A stretch of DNA of 64,000 nt from Chloroflexota bacterium (GCA_016235425.1 JACRLC010000033.1:1-64000); one strand, 5' to 3'. Counted from the first letter of the stretch, positions 36,130 through 47,252 are shown. Numbers and translations: made by a program. Notes: generated by a model not told the origin, from the letters alone.

Positions 36130-36897
36130 ATGAAAGTTGGCATCCTGGCAGGCGGACTGGGAACCCGCCTCTCCGAAGAAACGACGATCAAACCCAAGCC
36201 GATGGTGGAGGTGGGCGGAAAGCCCATGCTCTGGCACATCATGAATATTTACGCGGCCTACGGCTATAAGGAATTCGTGGTGGCGCTCGGCTACAAGGGC
36301 GAACTCGTTAAAGATTATTTCCTGAACTATCGCCATCACGCCCGCAGTCTTACCGTGGACCTGGCGTCCGGTTCCGTTTCGATCCACGAAGGCGACCACG
36401 AGGATTGGATCATCCACCTGCTCGACACTGGGACGGAGACCAACACAGGCGGACGCGTCAAGCGTGTGGCTGAGTTCATCGGGAACGAGCAGTTCATGCT
36501 GACTTACGGGGACGGCGTGTGCAACGTGAACATCCCCGCGCTGATCGAATTCCACAAAAAGCAAAAGACGCTGGTCACCCTCACCGCTGTCCGCCCTCCG
36601 GCGCGCTTCGGCCAAATGGTGATCGAAGATAACCGGGTTATCCAATTCAAGGAGAAACCGCAGATCGGCGAAGGCTGGATCAATGGCGGCTTCTTCGTGC
36701 TGGAACCCGGCATTGTGAACTATATCGAAGGCGACCACACTGCCTGGGAATTTGAATCGCTCGAGCAGTTGGCCGCTGAAGGACAGGTCAGCGCGTACCA
36801 GCACGAACAATTCTGGCAGTGCATGGACACGCTGCGCGACGTGCATTTGCTCGATAAGTTATGGCAGGAAGGGAGGGCTCCGTGGAAAACCTGGTAA
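36130..36897 (+). CDS. rfbF: Glucose-1-phosphate cytidylyltransferase
   Basis: 255 residues. It makes CDP-glucose, the start of the CDP-dideoxysugar branch of O-antigen synthesis. The nucleotidyltransferase loop is [22 protein letters not shown], with LRSRR-less [15 protein letters not shown] and the downstream [17 protein letters not shown] (metal Asp in GDG). Length matches RfbF. The following rfbG is only a 5' fragment, so CDP-glucose has no dehydratase encoded here. It ends inside the rfbG start. Confidence 0.95.
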
Positions 36898-37079
36898 ACC
36901 GCGCTTTCTGGCAGGACCGCCCTACCTTCGTCACTGGCGGGACAGGTCTGGTTGGCTCGTGGCTCATGCGACGTTTAACGGAAGCAGGCGCGGACGTAGT
37001 CTGCCTCGTTCGCGATTGGGTCCCGCAAAAGAGTCCCCGAAAACCTTCACGATATCATCACAGTCGTTGGCGCATGTAG
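36882..37079 (+). pseudogene. Truncated CDP-glucose 4,6-dehydratase (rfbG remnant)
   Basis: The GTG at 36882, overlapping the end of rfbF, opens a frame whose first 48 or so residues match the RfbG start: [20 protein letters not shown] is the NAD-binding Rossmann glycine loop, then [17 protein letters not shown]. After about residue 49 (near 37029) the text changes to unrelated Arg/Ser-rich sequence and stops at 37079; normal RfbG is about 360 residues. Everything after the first beta-alpha unit has been lost, presumably by a deletion that joined it to the next gene. Confidence 0.85.
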
Positions 37080-39218: not shown

Positions 39219-39866
39219 TCAAGCGGGCATGTGGATGGCAAGGACGCGCAAGCGTGAACCAGCCAGTTCAGGGCGTTGGTAGCGATGGGCCGTGAGAGCG
39301 ACGCCTAAGATGACCCTGTAGACCAAAGCCGTATGTTGGTAGGCGGCCGTCAGCCCTTTCCAGCGAGCGGCTTCCAATCCGAAATAGCGTTTGGCCCAAG
39401 CGAAGTGTCGTTCGATCACGGTGCGGAACTTCAGATGAAAGCGCCATTGGCGGATGAAAGGCAAAGTGGCCAGCGCCTTCTTGCCTTGTTTGCGTAGGTT
39501 GTAATCAATCACAAAGCCTGCCTGCAAGACTGTGTGGATATAGTTCAGGAGCGGATAGCTGAAGTAGGCGGCATCGGCTCGCACAATCGCTATGGGGAAA
39601 CCAAAGCAGACCACTGCCAAAGACAAGAGCGGAATAGCCAAGGGGCTGTCATGACGGTTGGCAGGCGTGACCAGGAACATGATCGGCAATTCAGACCAAC
39701 GACAAAGCAGCGTGTGAACCTTGCAGCCCCAAGTGGAGCCTTTCCAGGGCTTTGGAAAACTCCAAGCCGCATCGGCATCTCCATGATACCAGGCGCGTTG
39801 GGTCGTGGAATCCAAGATAACATCTACTCCGTGAATGCTCTTCATGCGTGCCAATTGCCAGACCAT
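39219..39866 (-). CDS. Transposase, DDE catalytic part (second frame)
   Basis: 215 residues of the IS5-family DDE transposase. Catalytic-region motifs are DSTTQRAWYHGD near the start, IVRADAAYFSYP in the middle and RTVIERHFAWAKRYFGLE, the Y-(2)-R-(3)-E-type signature, near the end. Upstream of its ATG the frame stays open and reads FWFFFLGMVW, continuous with family sequence. It is therefore probably expressed as a fusion with the first frame by a -1 shift at a run of five T near 39883. Confidence 0.88.
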   Translation of the reverse strand: MVWQLARMKSIHGVDVILDSTTQRAWYHGDADAAWSFPKPWKGSTWGCKVHTLLCRWSELPIMFLVTPANRHDSPLAIPLLSLAVVCFGFPIAIVRADAAYFSYPLLNYIHTVLQAGFVIDYNLRKQGKKALATLPFIRQWRFHLKFRTVIERHFAWAKRYFGLEAARWKGLTAAYQHTALVYRVILGVALTAHRYQRPELAGSRLRVLAIHMPA

Positions 39867-40270
39867 GCCCAGAAAGAAAAACCAGAACGGCCAGGGGCCC
39901 AGCGCTTGACGACGTTCCCAATATTGGCCGATGCTGACCAGGCGCCCCTCTGCAAGGCCCGCGCCGCTTCGGGATGGGTGCGGAAGTAATCCACCGTCAT
40001 CTCATAACCCATTTGCCAGGCCGCTTGAATGAACGCCATCATCAGGATACTGTTCTCTCCATATCTTATCTTTGGTCCACGCCGCGCTGGGTCTGGCAGT
40101 CGTCGGGTCAGAGTTTGGCTGACCCGTATCGCCCATGCGGCTGTCGTCATGGCATGGGTGGTCTGCAAAAACTCTGTTGGCGTAATCCACAACCGCAAAA
40201 TGCCCAAGTCAACTTCAGGCGGCACAAATGGGCTGCTATCAATGATCGAAAGTGCTGTGCAATCTGGCAT
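39842..40270 (-). CDS. Transposase, N-terminal part (first frame)
   Basis: 142 residues with a helical N-terminal DNA-binding region (WAIRVSQTLTRRLPDPARRGPKIRY), typical of IS427-group elements. It overlaps the catalytic frame by 25 bases in a different frame. The last 18 or so residues (RSGFSFWAWSGNWHA) are the unshifted reading and do not look like family sequence. A programmed shift or a disabling mutation are both possible; the U-rich slip site favours the former. Confidence 0.8.
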   Translation of the reverse strand: MPDCTALSIIDSSPFVPPEVDLGILRLWITPTEFLQTTHAMTTAAWAIRVSQTLTRRLPDPARRGPKIRYGENSILMMAFIQAAWQMGYEMTVDYFRTHPEAARALQRGAWSASANIGNVVKRWAPGRSGFSFWAWSGNWHA

Positions 40271-40436: not shown

Positions 40437-40988
40437 ATGCAAAAATCAATAAACTTCCGCAACAGGCTCCCTGAGTTCCCGCAAATAGTACCTGTGTTTG
40501 CCGTTATTTCCTTTGTGGTCTTTGGATGGACCACATTTCGGTTTGCTCAAAAACTTCCCAGTTGGCTGAATTACCTGCGAATGGATGAGATTGTTTCCAT
40601 TTATGCCTATACAGTTCTTACCAACTTTGTTGAGAGCATTATTGCGATACTGCTCCTATTGGGGCTGGTTTTTATCCTGCCGAGGCGATTCTTTCTGGAC
40701 CGATTTGTTGCCAGCGGCGCATTGATCTCATTTCTTGGGATCGGCTATCTGATTTATCTTGCGCTGATTTCCGGTGAGAGTAAATCCTCCCAATTTCCGC
40801 TGGAGGTATTTTATTGGTTTCCGATTATTGCTGTGATTATTCTTCTGATTGGTCTTGCCCTGCCTCTGGTTCACCCGGTACGCAAATTCTTCGAGATGCT
40901 GTCAGATCGTTTTACAGTTTTCCTGTATCTACAGATTCCCCTTGGCATATTAGGGGCGATCATAGTTCTGGCTAATAATTTATTTTAG
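40437..40988 (+). CDS. Four-helix membrane protein (copy A)
   Basis: 183 residues with four membrane helices and short loops. The sequence begins with a cytoplasmic segment, then IVPVFAVISFVVFGWTTFRF, LPSWLNYLRMDEIVSIYAY and a helix around FVESIIAILLLLGLVFILP. A clear paralogue is encoded at 45176-45712, and each copy stands just upstream of a sulfatase-like gene. That suggests a membrane partner or substrate-feeding subunit for that enzyme. No named family is recognised. Confidence 0.75.
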   Translation: MQKSINFRNRLPEFPQIVPVFAVISFVVFGWTTFRFAQKLPSWLNYLRMDEIVSIYAYTVLTNFVESIIAILLLLGLVFILPRRFFLDRFVASGALISFLGIGYLIYLALISGESKSSQFPLEVFYWFPIIAVIILLIGLALPLVHPVRKFFEMLSDRFTVFLYLQIPLGILGAIIVLANNLF

Positions 40989-40996
40989 GAAACGAC

Positions 40997-42526
40997 ATGC
41001 CTTCGCCCAGCCGCCGTGATTTTTTGAAGATAGCCGCAGTGACATCTGCGTCCCTGGCTCTTTCCCGATATCTTCCGTGGAAACAACCGTCTCATTCGCT
41101 TGAAGGATCGTCCGACCGCAATGTGATCATCCTTGTATTCGACGCGATGAGCGCACGCCATCTCTCGGTCTACGGGTATCCAAGAAAAACGACCCCGAAT
41201 TTCGAGAGGTTTGCCGGGCGTGCGAATGTTTATCATGCTCATTACTCTCCGGGCAATTACACCGTTCCCGGCGTTTCTTCGCTTTTGACGGGTCTGCATC
41301 CGTGGACGCATCGCGCCGTCAACCTATCTGGTTTGGTGGCGCGCGATCTTGCGGATAGAAATATTTTCGAACGACTGGACGCCCGATATCATCGGTTTGC
41401 GTTTTCGCAGAATGTTTGGGCAACGAATATTTTGACGCAGTTCGAGAATGGAATAGATGAATTTCTGCCATCCAGTGCATTTTCACAGTTTTCAATGGTT
41501 GCAAGCGAAGCCTTTCCGAACGATCCGCGCAGTGCCCATCAGGCTTACGATGATTTTATGTTTGATTTCATCGATTCTCCTGCGTCGCTCGGGTTTGGTT
41601 TGGCGGAGCGGTTTTATTTTGAACAAAAAAAGAAGAGGATGTTCGAGCGCAAATATCCGAGAGGGATTCCGCAGCCGCGCAACTATCCGCTTGTTTATAA
41701 GCTGGATCAGGTTTTTGACGGGATCATCGAAACACTTGAAACACTCGAACAGCCCTTTTTTGCTTATATTCACGTTTTTTCTCCTCACGCCCCGTATCGA
41801 GCGCGCCGTGATTTTGTAGGCATTTTTGACAATGGTTGGAATCCAACGCCAAAACCGGAGCACGTTTTCTCGGAAGGAGAGACGGAGGAAACCGTCCAGA
41901 AAAACCGGATTTGGTACGACGAATATATTGCGAACGTGGACGATGAATTTGGGCGATTATTGGATTCGCTTGAAAAAAGCGGAGTGCTGGGAAAAAGCTA
42001 TTTGATGGTTACATCGGATCACGGCGAATTGATCGAAAGAGGTGTAAAAGGACACGTAACGCCGTTGATGTATGAGCCGCTCGTCAATATCCCTCTTCTA
42101 GTATCTACGCCAGGACAGGTGGAAGGGAAGCAGATTCATACGCCAACCAGCAGTGTGGACATTTTGCCCACCATACTCAAAGCTGCCGGGCACGAAATCC
42201 CCACCTGGGTGGAGGGACAATTATTGCCGGAGTTTGGCTCCACAACCGCGGAAGACCGTCCGATCTACATGATGGATGCAAAATCGGGTTCATCGTTCGG
42301 TAAATTTTCCACGGCTACCTTTGCGATGCGAAAGGGAAAATACAAGATCATCCTGTATCGCGGTTATAAAGCCTATGAGGAAGATGCTTTTGAAGTTTAT
42401 AATCTGGAGAACGACCCGGAAGAACTGGACGATTTGGTTTTGAAAAACGATCCGGTTGTAGTTGAATTAAAGAGCGAGCTTCTGAAGAAGTTCGACGAAG
42501 TAAACAAAGCTCATGTCAGTGCTTGA
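40997..42526 (+). CDS. Tat-exported sulfatase-like enzyme (copy A)
   Basis: 509 residues. A twin-arginine signal SRRDFLKIAAVTSASLALS sends it outside. The AlkP-superfamily core has the metal Asp in ILVFDAMSARHLSVYGYPR and SDHGELIERGVKGH for the second metal set. Where true sulfatases have C-x-P-S-R before LLTG, this protein has TVPGVSSLLTG: Thr replaces the formylglycine Cys and the catalytic Arg is missing. It is therefore more likely a phospho- or phosphoester-transferase or hydrolase with a Thr nucleophile, like LtaS or EptA, than a sulfatase. It is paralogous to 45720-47252. Confidence 0.85.
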   Translation: MPSPSRRDFLKIAAVTSASLALSRYLPWKQPSHSLEGSSDRNVIILVFDAMSARHLSVYGYPRKTTPNFERFAGRANVYHAHYSPGNYTVPGVSSLLTGLHPWTHRAVNLSGLVARDLADRNIFERLDARYHRFAFSQNVWATNILTQFENGIDEFLPSSAFSQFSMVASEAFPNDPRSAHQAYDDFMFDFIDSPASLGFGLAERFYFEQKKKRMFERKYPRGIPQPRNYPLVYKLDQVFDGIIETLETLEQPFFAYIHVFSPHAPYRARRDFVGIFDNGWNPTPKPEHVFSEGETEETVQKNRIWYDEYIANVDDEFGRLLDSLEKSGVLGKSYLMVTSDHGELIERGVKGHVTPLMYEPLVNIPLLVSTPGQVEGKQIHTPTSSVDILPTILKAAGHEIPTWVEGQLLPEFGSTTAEDRPIYMMDAKSGSSFGKFSTATFAMRKGKYKIILYRGYKAYEEDAFEVYNLENDPEELDDLVLKNDPVVVELKSELLKKFDEVNKAHVSA

Positions 42527-42577
42527 TCCAATATTCCTGACATTAGATTTTTCCCTATGATATGAAAGGAGTGTATC

Positions 42578-42742
42578 GTGTATATTGACCCCAATACTGG
42601 CGGCGTTATCTTTCAGGTGCTTGCCGCCTTCCTCGCAGTTTTTTCCGGTGTATTGCTTGCCTTCTCTTCAAGAATTCGCGCAGGCATTGCCAAACTTCGC
42701 CGCCGCGGCCGCAATGAAGAAAAGGAGCAAGATAAAGAATAA
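42578..42742 (+). CDS. Small membrane protein, YIDP-type
   Basis: 54 residues from GTG 42578, 7 bases after AGGAG at 42566-42570. The protein starts VYIDPNTGGVIFQVLAAF, has one helix (FLAVFSGVLLAFS) and ends with a basic, charged tail (RLRR-like KLRRRGRNEEKEQ). The stop overlaps the next gene's ATG (TAATG), so the two are coupled. Similar YIDPxTG mini-proteins are known beside envelope polysaccharide and phosphatase genes, but their function is unknown to me. Confidence 0.75.
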   Translation: MYIDPNTGGVIFQVLAAFLAVFSGVLLAFSSRIRAGIAKLRRRGRNEEKEQDKE

Positions 42743-44571
42743 TGCGTAGTGTGCTTGTAGGATTTGATTCGTTCGACCCTTCCACCTACGAATCATTGGC
42801 AAATAAAAACGAATTGCCTAACCTGACTGCGCTGGCGGGCAAGTCAGGTTATTCGCGTTTAAAGGTGTGCGCGCCTCCGCAAACCGAAGTTTCGTGGACG
42901 AGCATTGCAACCGGTTCCGATCCCGGCACGCATGGCATTTTTGATTTTGTCCATCGCGACCCGGCCACGTACGTTCCGTACGTTTCGATACTTCCCACAA
43001 AACAAAGCGCGGTGGGTGAGCAGTTCATCCCGCCTTATACTGCCAAAACGATTTTCTCCGAAGCCGCAGACATGGGTTATCCGGCCATTGCCTTATGGTG
43101 GCCCGCGCTGTTTCCCGCGCGGCTCGATATGCCAATCTCCACCATTCCCGGTTTGGGCACGCCCGATGTGCGCGGCCAGCTTGGAGTGGGAACCTACGCA
43201 ACATCCGACCCTGCAGAAAAGAAAGAAAAAACGCGAGTCGCCGTTCTGAAGGAAACGTCAAAGGGGAAGTATGCTGGCGCGCTCGATGGCCCGATGACGA
43301 AAACTCGCGAAGGGCTTCAACCCGCCAAGCTGGATTTCTCACTTGATATCTTGAACGACGCCCAGGCCACGCTTCGCATCGGGACCGTTGAACTGCCTCT
43401 GAAATGCGGACAGTGGAGTCCCATCTTTGAGATCAAGTTCAAGCTCGGTTTGCTTTTCAATGTCACTGCCATTACCAAGGTGATCCTCACGCAAATACGC
43501 GGCAAAGTCGGTTTATATTTCCTGCCTTTGCAAATCCATCCCCTGCATTCAACCTGGCATTACGGCGCGCCGAAATCCTTCATCAAAGATTCGTGGACAA
43601 ACGGCGGCCCTTTCCTTACCCTCGGCTGGCCGCAGGATACCACTGCGCTGGAGGAAGACTGCATCACGGATGAGCAATTTCTCGGCCTGTGCGATTCCAT
43701 TTTTGAATCCAGGAAGAAGGTTTTTTATTATCATCTCTCGAACATGAAAGAGGGTGTGCTGGCAGGTGTCTTCGATTGCCTCGACCGCGTCCAGCACATG
43801 TTCCTGCGCGACCGCGAAGATATCGTCCATGATTGGTATCGCAGGCTCGATGGCTTTGTCGGTGAAGCGCGCGGGAAAATGTCATCGCTTGGCATGGACA
43901 AGGCGCGCTTTCTCGTCATGTCTGATCACGGCTTCAAAAATTTCGGCCACAAAGTGCATCTTAATCGCTGGCTTGCAGGGAATAATTATCTTTCGTTTTC
44001 GAGCAATGGCGGCGAAGATGGACTGCAAAACGTCAATTGGGCCGAGACCTCCGCTTATGCCCTGGGCTTGAACAGCATTTATTTGAACGTCAAAGGACGC
44101 GAAGGCAAAGGACGCGTGACCGCTGAACAGGTCGAGCCTTTGCTGGCTGAGATCAAAACAAAACTCTTGGATTTGCGCGGCCCTGGCGGAAAGAACGCTG
44201 TCAGTTCGGTCTTGTTCAAACACGAAGCATTTTCCGGCCCCTATCTCCGTCTCGGCCCGGACCTGGTGGTTGGCTATGCCCCAAATTACCGCGCCTCCTC
44301 CGAGACCGGTCTCGGCAAAGCGCCGCAAACGACGCTTGAAGTCAACACCGATCATTGGGGCGCTGATCACTGTATTGACGCGGAAGCAGTTCCCGGGGTC
44401 CTGTTTGCGAACCGTGATGTCGCCAACATACCGGAAGTTTCCTTCCGCGACATTCCGTTGTTGATGATCGGAAAGCATCTCGACCAGTCCTATCTCAAGC
44501 CTCCCTCGGAGCAAAACCGGCAGGGACAGGAAAACATCGAAGAGCGGTTAAAAGGACTTGGCTACCTGTAA
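42742..44571 (+). CDS. AlkP-superfamily phosphohydrolase, COG3379-type
   Basis: 609 residues. The start SVLVGFDSFDPSTYE and the segment PPQTEVSWTSIATGSDPGTHG show a metal Asp and a Thr or Ser nucleophile of type I phosphodiesterase/nucleotide pyrophosphatase enzymes. FLVMSDHGFKNFGHKVHLNRWL gives the second metal site, and a late NTDHWGADH completes it. No signal peptide is visible, so it may be cytoplasmic. It is translationally coupled to the 54-residue protein before it and abuts the sulfotransferase gene. Confidence 0.88.
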   Translation: MRSVLVGFDSFDPSTYESLANKNELPNLTALAGKSGYSRLKVCAPPQTEVSWTSIATGSDPGTHGIFDFVHRDPATYVPYVSILPTKQSAVGEQFIPPYTAKTIFSEAADMGYPAIALWWPALFPARLDMPISTIPGLGTPDVRGQLGVGTYATSDPAEKKEKTRVAVLKETSKGKYAGALDGPMTKTREGLQPAKLDFSLDILNDAQATLRIGTVELPLKCGQWSPIFEIKFKLGLLFNVTAITKVILTQIRGKVGLYFLPLQIHPLHSTWHYGAPKSFIKDSWTNGGPFLTLGWPQDTTALEEDCITDEQFLGLCDSIFESRKKVFYYHLSNMKEGVLAGVFDCLDRVQHMFLRDREDIVHDWYRRLDGFVGEARGKMSSLGMDKARFLVMSDHGFKNFGHKVHLNRWLAGNNYLSFSSNGGEDGLQNVNWAETSAYALGLNSIYLNVKGREGKGRVTAEQVEPLLAEIKTKLLDLRGPGGKNAVSSVLFKHEAFSGPYLRLGPDLVVGYAPNYRASSETGLGKAPQTTLEVNTDHWGADHCIDAEAVPGVLFANRDVANIPEVSFRDIPLLMIGKHLDQSYLKPPSEQNRQGQENIEERLKGLGYL

Positions 44572-45192
44572 ATGTTCAAGAAATTATTTTCACGCGTCGA
44601 ACCTGTCGTTGTCAAACCCGTTGTCATTGTTTCGGGACTTCCGCGCTCCGGCACATCCATGATGATGAAAATGCTGGCGGAGGGCGGGCTGGATACCGTT
44701 ACCGATTCCCTGCGCCAGGCGGACGAGGATAACCCCAACGGTTATTTCGAAATCGAATTGAGCAAGTCTCTCAAGGATGGCGGGAAAAAATGGCTGGACA
44801 ATGCCCAGGGTAAGGCTGTTAAAGTCATTTCCTATTTGCTCGAATTTTTGCCCGAGCATTTGAATTACGATATCATTTTCATGGAACGCGAGATCCATGA
44901 AATCCTGGCGTCTCAGAAAAAGATGTTGCAGAGGCGAAACGAAACGTCCATTATCACAGACGCCCAAATGGAAATGCAATTCCGCGAACATCTGCGTGCG
45001 GTAAAGTATTGGGCGGCTCGCAAGCCCAATATGCGTGTGCTGTACGTCAAATATGATGAGATGGTGAACGATCCTGGGATGTTGTGTACCTCCGTTGCAG
45101 AGTTTTTGGGGTTGTCTCTGGATACTTCTGCGATGCAGGCTGTTCCCAACCGGTCCCTTTACCGAAATCGTTCAAATGAAAAGTCTTCTTAA
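44572..45192 (+). CDS. Sulfotransferase family protein
   Basis: 206 residues. The PAPS-binding P-loop is VSGLPRSGTSMMMKMLAEGG, and a later YVKYDEMVNDPG matches the 3'-phosphate-binding region. A short family member, it is probably cytosolic or membrane-associated and uses PAPS to sulfate a small molecule or lipid-linked sugar. It follows the COG3379 gene with no gap and overlaps the next gene by 17 bases, so it is clearly in the same operon. A sulfate-adding enzyme next to sulfatase-like ones is notable, but these lack the sulfatase active site. Confidence 0.85.
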   Translation: MFKKLFSRVEPVVVKPVVIVSGLPRSGTSMMMKMLAEGGLDTVTDSLRQADEDNPNGYFEIELSKSLKDGGKKWLDNAQGKAVKVISYLLEFLPEHLNYDIIFMEREIHEILASQKKMLQRRNETSIITDAQMEMQFREHLRAVKYWAARKPNMRVLYVKYDEMVNDPGMLCTSVAEFLGLSLDTSAMQAVPNRSLYRNRSNEKSS

Positions 45193-45712
45193 TCGGTTTC
45201 CCCGCGTTCAGGAAATCATACCTGTTTTTGCCGTGATTGTCTTCATGGTATACGCATGGTCAATCATCTCGTTCTTATGGGTTTTACCGTCCTGGCTGAA
45301 TTTTATGACACCAGCCGAAATCGCCTCCGGCTTTTGTTATGTGTTGACTTTATGTCTTGTCGAAAGCCTGTCATTCCTGTTGCTCCTTTTGGCTTTGTGT
45401 TTTATTTTGCCCTCGATAATCTTGAAGAATGAGTTCATTGTGCGCGGCTCCGCCTTGACGGTGTCTGTTCTTGGATCGCTCATGCTGTATTTCCGTTCCC
45501 ATCCATTTTTCGCACAACTCAATAACTCGCTCTATTCCTTCCTGCTCGCCGCTTTGTTTGTGGCAATACTGGCCGCTTTCCTTTCCACCGCGATTCGGGG
45601 ACTTCGCCGGTTTATGAATTGGATCTCGGATCGCCTGATCGTTTTCCTTTATGTGTTGCTGCCGTTGACGCTCCTTTCGATAGTGGTCATTGTGATCCGC
45701 AACGTGGTTTGA
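45176..45712 (+). CDS. Four-helix membrane protein (copy B)
   Basis: 178 residues from the ATG at 45176. Paralogue of the gene at 40437: VQEIIPVFAVIVFMVYAWSI parallels IVPVFAVISFVVFGWTTF, and VLPSWLNFMTPAEIASGF parallels LPSWLNYLRMDEIVSIY. Four helices are predicted. It overlaps the sulfotransferase end and precedes the second sulfatase-like gene by 7 bases. The repeated pairing with that enzyme suggests a functional partner. Function unknown. Confidence 0.75.
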   Translation: MKSLLNRFPRVQEIIPVFAVIVFMVYAWSIISFLWVLPSWLNFMTPAEIASGFCYVLTLCLVESLSFLLLLLALCFILPSIILKNEFIVRGSALTVSVLGSLMLYFRSHPFFAQLNNSLYSFLLAALFVAILAAFLSTAIRGLRRFMNWISDRLIVFLYVLLPLTLLSIVVIVIRNVV

Positions 45713-45719
45713 GTATATT

Positions 45720-47252
45720 ATGGCATCCATTAGCAGGCGAGATTTTCTTAAGACCGCCTTGTCTCTTTCGGCTGGAGCGACTCTTTTCCCGCTTTTGTCT
45801 TCCATTCGAGACTCCGTTCGTAAGGCGGATGGCAAGCCGAATATTATCATTATGGTATTCGACGCCATGACGGCCAGAAACCTATCGCTTTATGGCTATC
45901 CAAGGAAGACCACTCCCAACCTGGAAAGGCTTGCGCAACGCGCCACGGTCTATCATTCCCACTATTCAGCCGGCAATTTTACAACTCCCGGAACTGCATC
46001 CATGCTGACAGGAACATATCCCTGGACGCATCGGGCGATTAACATTGAGGGGATGGTTGCCCGGAAATTGGCCGATAATAATCTTTTCAGCTATTTGCAG
46101 GATGACTATTATTGCACTGTTTTTACCCAAAACTTTTTAGCCGAAGTGCTATTGGATCAGTTTGCGGGAAGCGTTGACCGTCATCTTGTCATGTCGTCGT
46201 TTAGAGATAAACCTTATCGGGCGGCTTTGAGCAGTCATTTTCCAAATGACCCAATCGTTGCTCTTCAAGCGCTGGACGAGTTGATGCTGGGATATGACCG
46301 TTCTCCGGCATCCCTGGTCTTTGGCTTCATCGACAGAATCTATGGCGCGAAGGCAAGGCAGAGTGGTGGTCAGCCTGCCGGGGAATATCCCTATGGCTTG
46401 CCGGATAATTATTTCTCCACTTTTCTAAATGAAGCAGTCTACGCCGGCGTTCTGGATGAGATTCGCTCCCTGGCCGATGGTTCGGCTCCATTTTTGGGAT
46501 ATTTCCATTTATGGTCTCCTCATTGGCCGTTTGCCCCCAGAAAAGAGTTTGTGAACACACTGCCGGAAATCCAACTGCCTGAGAAACCTGTTCATAAATT
46601 GTCGGAAAACGATCTGAGGAAGACCAGACTCAAAGCGCGCCGGAAGGCATACGATGAATATTTATTGGAAGTGGACTTCGAAATCGGCAGACTGGTTGAT
46701 GCTCTTGAGAGCGATGGAATCCTTCAAAATAGTTACCTCATCCTGACCTCGGATCACGGCGAGGTATTCGAGCGGGGAGAGTGGGGACATGGCTACAAGC
46801 TCCTGTATGACCCGGTGATTCATATTCCATTGCTTGTTATGGCGCCTGGTCAGCAAAACCGGCAGGATATTTATGCAACAACGAGTAACATTGACATTGT
46901 GCCCACACTCCTGCGCATTGCCGGTAAACAACCCCCCAATAAAATAGAGGGTAGAATTCTTCCGGGCTTTGGCGGAACGGATGACCCTGAACGAAGTATT
47001 TTTTCACTCGAAGCGAAAGAGAATTCGTCGTTTGGCCCGCTAAAGAAAGCTACCGTCTCGATGACAAAGGGAGATCATAAATTGATCTATTATTTGGGCT
47101 ATGAAAAATACCCGGATGGTTTTGAACTTTACAACTTGCGCGAAGATGGCGATGAAATGAACGATATATTTCAGCGGGACGCCAAAACCGCCGCCCGCAT
47201 GAAGGAAGAATTGCTCGACCAGCTTGCTGACAAAAATAATTCCATTCGATAG
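45720..47252 (+). CDS. Tat-exported sulfatase-like enzyme (copy B)
   Basis: 510 residues. Tat signal SRRDFLKTALSLSAGATLF. Core motifs IIMVFDAMTARNLSLYGYPR, FTTPGTASMLTGTYPWTHR and TSDHGEVFERGEWGHG are closely parallel to copy A. Again Thr stands at the sulfatase Cys position and no Arg follows, so it is not a formylglycine sulfatase. Compared with copy A the middle domain is diverged (RQSGGQPAGEYPYGLPDN), suggesting different substrates. It is the last gene of the duplicated cassette, 12 bases before gpmA. Confidence 0.85.
   Translation: MASISRRDFLKTALSLSAGATLFPLLSSIRDSVRKADGKPNIIIMVFDAMTARNLSLYGYPRKTTPNLERLAQRATVYHSHYSAGNFTTPGTASMLTGTYPWTHRAINIEGMVARKLADNNLFSYLQDDYYCTVFTQNFLAEVLLDQFAGSVDRHLVMSSFRDKPYRAALSSHFPNDPIVALQALDELMLGYDRSPASLVFGFIDRIYGAKARQSGGQPAGEYPYGLPDNYFSTFLNEAVYAGVLDEIRSLADGSAPFLGYFHLWSPHWPFAPRKEFVNTLPEIQLPEKPVHKLSENDLRKTRLKARRKAYDEYLLEVDFEIGRLVDALESDGILQNSYLILTSDHGEVFERGEWGHGYKLLYDPVIHIPLLVMAPGQQNRQDIYATTSNIDIVPTLLRIAGKQPPNKIEGRILPGFGGTDDPERSIFSLEAKENSSFGPLKKATVSMTKGDHKLIYYLGYEKYPDGFELYNLREDGDEMNDIFQRDAKTAARMKEELLDQLADKNNSIR

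Follow-up and report, generated by a model that had tools for sequence, protein, structure and literature searches.

Gene pairs encoding a five-helix membrane protein and a Tat-exported, threonine-centred AlkP-superfamily enzyme, with a sulfotransferase module, in a group of Chloroflexota

Gene content of the locus

The window (the whole stretch of 64,000 nucleotides that was analysed) is part of contig C9 of a 5.0 Mb draft genome, the nearest named relatives of which are Chloroflexi MAGs, and which is probably close to the Anaerolineales. Seven open reading frames lie on its plus strand in the order A1-B1-C-D-E-A2-B2, with neighbours overlapping or at most about 50 bases apart, so that the close packing on one strand reported by a first-pass annotation of the sequence is borne out:

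A1, 40437-40988, plus strand: five-TM membrane protein, predicted to be the stand-alone membrane domain of a B enzyme
B1, 40997-42526, plus strand: Tat-exported enzyme of the AlkP/sulfatase fold, with Thr89 replacing the formylglycine Cys (PF00884, TAT signal)
C, 42578-42742, plus strand: 54-aa single-TM protein with a YIDPNTGG N-terminus and a basic C-terminus
D, 42742-44571, plus strand: cytosolic type I phosphodiesterase/AlkP-like enzyme, COG3379-type (PF01663)
E, 44572-45192, plus strand: PAPS-type sulfotransferase, 206 aa (PF13469, PF00685)
A2, 45176-45712 (ATG at 45176), plus strand: second five-TM protein, which aligns with the A family and whose first 17 bases are shared with the end of E
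B2, 45720-47252, plus strand: second Tat-exported, Thr-centred enzyme of the AlkP/sulfatase fold, from a different clade than B1

On the 5' side of this cassette are a split transposase, a large membrane protein, a sugar nucleotidyltransferase (36130-36897) and a GT87 glycosyltransferase; on the 3' side are phosphoglycerate mutase (gpmA), an FAD/FeS dehydrogenase and a TrmH-like gene (flanking genes with no Pfam call were named from their translations). The transposase frame is in two overlapping pieces on the minus strand (39219-39866 and 39842-40270), directly 5' of A1, where it separates the glycan genes from the cassette, and is probably a frameshifted insertion sequence. A short frame 3' of the sugar nucleotidyltransferase (36861-37079) resembles the start of an NAD-dependent epimerase/dehydratase and appears truncated.

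The Tat-exported enzymes

Both B proteins belong to PF00884 (B1, E 8e-42, 144 bits; B2, E 4e-42, 145 bits; cut-off 25) and carry a Tat signal according to TIGR01409 (19.9 and 17.9 bits; cut-off 16.7). The twin Arg of this signal is invariant among 54 aligned B proteins, as are Asp49, Thr89, His264, Asp341, His342 and His353. The position of the formylglycine Cys is occupied by Thr in all 54 homologues, and that of the CxPxR Arg by Thr in 51 and Val in three, which extends to all the aligned homologues what the first-pass annotation had noticed in the two enzymes of the window. B1 has no cysteines and B2 has one (residue 132); a Cys-based site elsewhere in the enzymes was looked for, and there is none. 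Identification of B as a formylglycine sulfatase (S1) is ruled out by the universal Thr, the missing CxPxR Arg and the lack of Cys in B1. At the level of sequence, there is good support for the earlier suggestion of Thr-centred, phospho-type chemistry by which B would act on exported substrates.

The best sequence matches of B come from the choline sulfatase/PehA branch of PF00884 (choline sulfatase, arylsulfatase and PehA, all far under the curated cut-offs), but B differs from this branch in the replacement of the Cys and the CxPxR Arg (54 of 54), in having partner A, and in its export by the Tat pathway. Scores against the curated LtaS and EptA families are in the tens of bits (cut-offs 500-970), and against the NCBIfam YejM family 28-32 bits (cut-off 825); a profile comparison matched B to E. 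coli EptA with 93% probability over 157 columns. The catalytic pattern of LtaS consists of Thr300, Glu255, Asp475 and His476, a Thr with Asp/Glu and Asp-His metal ligands that is found likewise in EptA, and a Thr-centred pattern is reported for YejM too (PMC7576196). B shares with these phosphoglycerol and phosphoethanolamine transferases (LtaS, EptA/MCR) the Thr nucleophile, the corresponding ligands (Thr89, Asp49, Asp341 and His342) and a predicted site on the outer membrane face, but their membrane domain is fused to the catalytic domain, and B is nearer in sequence to choline sulfatase and PehA. An AF2 model of B built from four sequences (pLDDT 43) was too poor for inspection of the active site.

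The membrane protein family

A represents an orphan family of 44 members, outside every Pfam and NCBIfam family searched, within the alignment of which A2 is 31% identical to A1. Homologues are present in ten of 400 genomes of the phylum, with one marginal fragment match in addition, and are almost confined to the window's own taxonomic family. The AF2 model of A (four-sequence alignment; pLDDT 84) has five helices (residues 14-46, 49-80, 90-114, 128-144 and 146-182); the first-pass annotation was correct in placing next to this protein a Tat-exported, sulfatase-like enzyme, but had counted four helices. The distribution of charges together with the model helices suggests that the N-terminus is inside and the C-terminus outside. 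The last helix ends in a nearly invariant Arg (41 of 44).

The top three structural matches of the A model are three separate structures of the YejM/PbgA membrane domain (7t6d, Z 8.7 over 161 residues; 6v8q, Z 8.1; 6xlp, Z 7.0), with an alignment that is near end to end (A 3-183 with YejM 5-194; rmsd 5.5 Å), whereas unrelated structures have Z of 5.0 and lower. The membrane domain of PbgA was described as a previously unseen fold (PMC7018646), and YejM loses about 97% of its activity when its five helices are removed (PMC7576196). All of these A-YejM scores fall below 13, a level under which helical bundles may match simply because both consist of packed helices, and comparison of the sequences of A and the membrane domain of YejM detected no similarity; the likeness of the modelled A to this domain is therefore taken as a strong hint, not proof. 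The hint is strengthened by the fact that the sole well-matched fold is the membrane half of a Thr-centred AlkP protein, and A adjoins a gene for such an enzyme. The membrane domains of EptA and LtaS are absent among the structural matches of A, which is neutral as evidence either way. A was also considered as a sequence homologue of YejM or of the membrane part of the fused enzymes described below, but profile comparison with the latter gave no match either, and the idea was dropped for lack of signal.

Pairing and mobility of A and B

Full-length B homologues with 34-60% identity are encoded by approximately 20 of 101 sampled related genomes, often in multiple copies. A and B are adjacent at 49 of 50 loci, A being first in nearly all, with a spacing that is usually 2-30 bases or a 4-base overlap. 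A search with A alone gave the same picture, B being adjacent in 28 of 29 true matches, with the one exception lying close to the end of a contig. Distances among A proteins correlate with those among their partner B proteins (r 0.79, against 0.63 for the best of 2000 within-genome partner swaps), a correlation for which joint inheritance alone may account. These observations show that A and B move and diverge together; the correlation alone is not proof of physical contact.

B1 and B2 are approximately 45% identical and are placed in different clades of the B tree, each of which also occurs singly in other genomes. Recent tandem duplication of the cassette is rejected by this tree, and the window thus contains two old paralogous pairs around one C-D-E core; the cassette had been called duplicated, which is right in that two A-B pairs flank C-D-E but not as to the age of the copies.

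The sulfotransferase and phosphodiesterase module

The other genes are of the kinds first proposed, a 54-residue membrane protein, a COG3379-type enzyme and a sulfotransferase. C, which like A has no family assignment, has a single hydrophobic segment (residues 10-28) followed by a basic tail, and its homologues adjoin D, directly before it, at 16 loci; it is probably an inner-face anchor. D is a PF01663 protein (E 2e-27; 97.1 bits, cut-off 23) without an export signal, and a nine-member alignment (70% mean column identity) displays an AlkP-type pattern of metal residues, with Thr/Ser48 at the nucleophile position. It resembles type I phosphodiesterases (NPP, COG3379-type) in passing the gathering score and in these metal residues, but has an extra insert, the C-terminal tail ERLKGLGYL and a tiny membrane partner, C. 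A tail of the form ERLxGLGYL is shared by the C-terminus of D (44542-44571), a 205-aa neighbour of a D-like protein mentioned below, and other AlkP-type proteins of these clusters.

E exceeds the gathering scores of two families of PAPS sulfotransferases (PF13469, E 8e-13, 49.6 bits, cut-off 27; PF00685, E 1.5e-9, 38.1 bits, cut-off 22) and has the 5'-phosphosulfate loop, in which SGLPRSGTSMMM is invariant, as is SGLPRSGTS in an eight-member alignment. It differs from known members in being short (206 aa), in its conserved LYRNR-type tail, and in its pairing with AlkP-type enzymes. An APS kinase domain is encoded on another contig of the window's own genome (C46, E 4e-58); since 90 of the 101 genomes have a match over the cut-off, the presence of E relative to that of APS kinase is uninformative.

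C, D and E recur together across many genera, E being located 3' of D at varying spacing, frequently with A-B in between. A-B also occurs without C-D-E (L037, L038, L054, L183 and L185), and C-D-E at loci where no A-B adjoins it (L175, L176 and L177), so that, of the neighbour conservation expected for a single cassette, the A-B pairing and the recurrence of C-D-E stood, but A-B and C-D-E are separable modules. Across the 101 genomes, which are related and hence not independent, B and E nevertheless show strong co-occurrence: 18 have both, two have B only, six have E only and 75 have neither. The neighbourhood of mutS, gpmA and a glcD-like gene recurs around the cluster in many genera; at other chromosomal sites (with lepA and a nucleotide-sugar epimerase, with rpoC, or with sat-cysC), A is kept with B and C with D. 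In some relatives, A-B is flanked by PAPS synthase (sat-cysC), a second sulfotransferase and a Gfo/Idh oxidoreductase. In distant Chloroflexota, E homologues are mostly far from any AlkP gene.

A locus with fused enzymes

Three genomes (L166-L168) have a paralogous locus at which E, a small protein (C') and a PF01663 protein (D') precede two fused enzymes of approximately 610-630 aa (the frames of L167 are longer), each with five membrane segments and an AlkP domain that has Thr at the nucleophile position in an SSWT motif. This arrangement shows that a membrane-plus-AlkP enzyme occupies the slot filled elsewhere by A-B. No open reading frame was found to match both the A and the B models in a search for a fused form of the pair itself. 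The full order at these loci is E, C', D', a 205-aa protein with a GLGYI tail, the two fused enzymes, a Tat-exported 670-aa protein and a PMT-like glycosyltransferase.

Interpretation

In this group of Chloroflexota, the gene set probably serves to attach phosphate-type and sulfate groups to exported sugars or lipids. The best overall explanation, to which we give a probability of about 0.5, is that A-B is a two-gene version of the YejM/PbgA, LtaS and EptA architecture, accompanied by C-D-E on the inner face of the membrane. The fold match of A, the Thr-centred AlkP domain of YejM and the fused paralogous locus together point to a two-gene version of this architecture, and the A-B loci of relatives that include PAPS synthase and extra sulfotransferases assign the system to the decoration of envelope glycans or lipids. 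Gene order, conservation, the Tat signal, the Thr site and the linkage to PAPS synthase in relatives are read from sequence, and the resemblance of A to the YejM membrane domain is seen in the model only. The headgroup remodelling of a lipid or glycan that was originally proposed fits a neighbourhood of glycosyltransferases, nucleotide-sugar genes and PAPS synthase, although the substrate is unproven.

According to this explanation, A would keep the substrate, a lipid or a molecule linked to one, in the cytoplasmic membrane, and B, having folded in the cytoplasm and been exported by the Tat pathway, would dock on A. The metal-activated Thr89 would attack a phosphodiester, either in the headgroup of a lipid or in a glycan linked to a lipid, forming a phospho-Thr intermediate from which the phospho group may pass to water or to an acceptor in the envelope, whether glycan or lipid. 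Inside the cell, E would use PAPS to sulfate the same precursor, if the two modules share a substrate, and D, presumably held at the membrane by C, may cleave or trim a phosphodiester either in this precursor or in a by-product. Like YejM/PbgA/LapC, the pair has a catalytic Thr, an AlkP fold, a putative envelope function and, in A, a predicted fold similar to the membrane domain, but YejM is one fused protein where here there are two genes, and B has a Tat signal. Counted against the explanation are the lack of a sequence signal between A and YejM or the membrane part of the fused enzymes, the Z scores under 13 with an rmsd of 5.5 Å, the closer relationship of B to sulfatases and PehA, the separability of the modules, the possibility that the partner correlation reflects joint inheritance, the distance of E from AlkP genes in distant relatives, and the poor model of B. 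A fuller version, in which A-B is a naturally split, Tat-exported, interfacial enzyme that has expanded into families of paralogues within one lineage of Chloroflexota and that builds, with C-D and E, an envelope molecule bearing both sulfate and phospho headgroups, is put forward tentatively.

The strongest rival, which we consider unlikely, sees B as a phosphodiesterase or phosphatase secreted to scavenge phosphate or to trim headgroups that have been released, with A as an anchor, chaperone or permease-like helper and E unrelated. Such a role would suit the best matches of B, which are to models of hydrolases (PehA, arylsulfatase), the frequent occurrence of A-B without C-D-E, and the hydrolysis of substrates that is retained by the soluble AlkP domains of EptA and LtaS (PMC7576196), but it would not account for the strict pairing and partner conservation of A and B, the co-occurrence of B with E or the linkage to PAPS synthase and sulfotransferase, and the neighbours are glycan genes rather than genes of phosphate uptake. 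Distinctly less probable is a formylglycine-independent sulfatase activity by which B removes or moves the sulfate added by E, making the cassette a system of sulfation-desulfation editing: B is a PF00884 protein with sulfatases as its nearest relatives in sequence and a genetic link to PAPS synthase and sulfotransferases, but Thr is not convertible to formylglycine, the CxPxR Arg is gone from all 54 B proteins, and we know of no Thr-centred sulfatase. Least probable is a vertically inherited cluster of unrelated functions, together by chance beside mutS and gpmA, as the same neighbourhood in many genera might indicate, because A-B and C-D-E keep their pairings at the lepA-epimerase, rpoC and sat-cysC sites as well.

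Each of the enzyme folds is already known. A split, Tat-exported form with a five-helix partner, its expansion into paralogues and its tie to a sulfotransferase are absent from the curated families and literature searched, which also contained nothing specific on COG3379 proteins with sulfotransferases or on sulfation in Anaerolineae. Lipids of the outer surface, teichoic acids and sensitivity to polymyxin are under the control of YejM, LtaS and EptA, enzymes in which the way that the membrane half feeds the catalytic half is unsettled. If the two-gene version of their architecture is real, it would be a natural one with many partner pairs, so that co-variation could be used to map the interface, and exchanged partners to test it, and it would point to an undescribed decoration of the envelope with sulfate and phosphate in Chloroflexota, the surface chemistry of which is poorly known.

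Other arrangements

At three loci (L045, L046 and L047), a single A gene is accompanied by several tandem B genes, which suggests that one A may serve several B catalytic proteins. In a more distant relative (L205:6891-10640), PAPS synthase (sat-cysC), an E homologue and a 332-aa D-like protein with a GLGYL tail are encoded in a row, E being between the other two, and this trio is a minimal version of the sulfotransferase-phosphodiesterase pair. On plasmids, no E homologues were found, and those of D were limited to weak haloarchaeal matches, of which one adjoins glycosyltransferases, sulfatases and a gene of the PAPS reductase family, and another is in an unrelated setting. At two further loci (L169:7715-9916 and L211:7012-9280), which come from a different taxonomic family within the same order, the E homologue adjoins a Thr-centred protein of the sulfatase fold (GQWTIPSHASLFSG) that has no obvious signal peptide.
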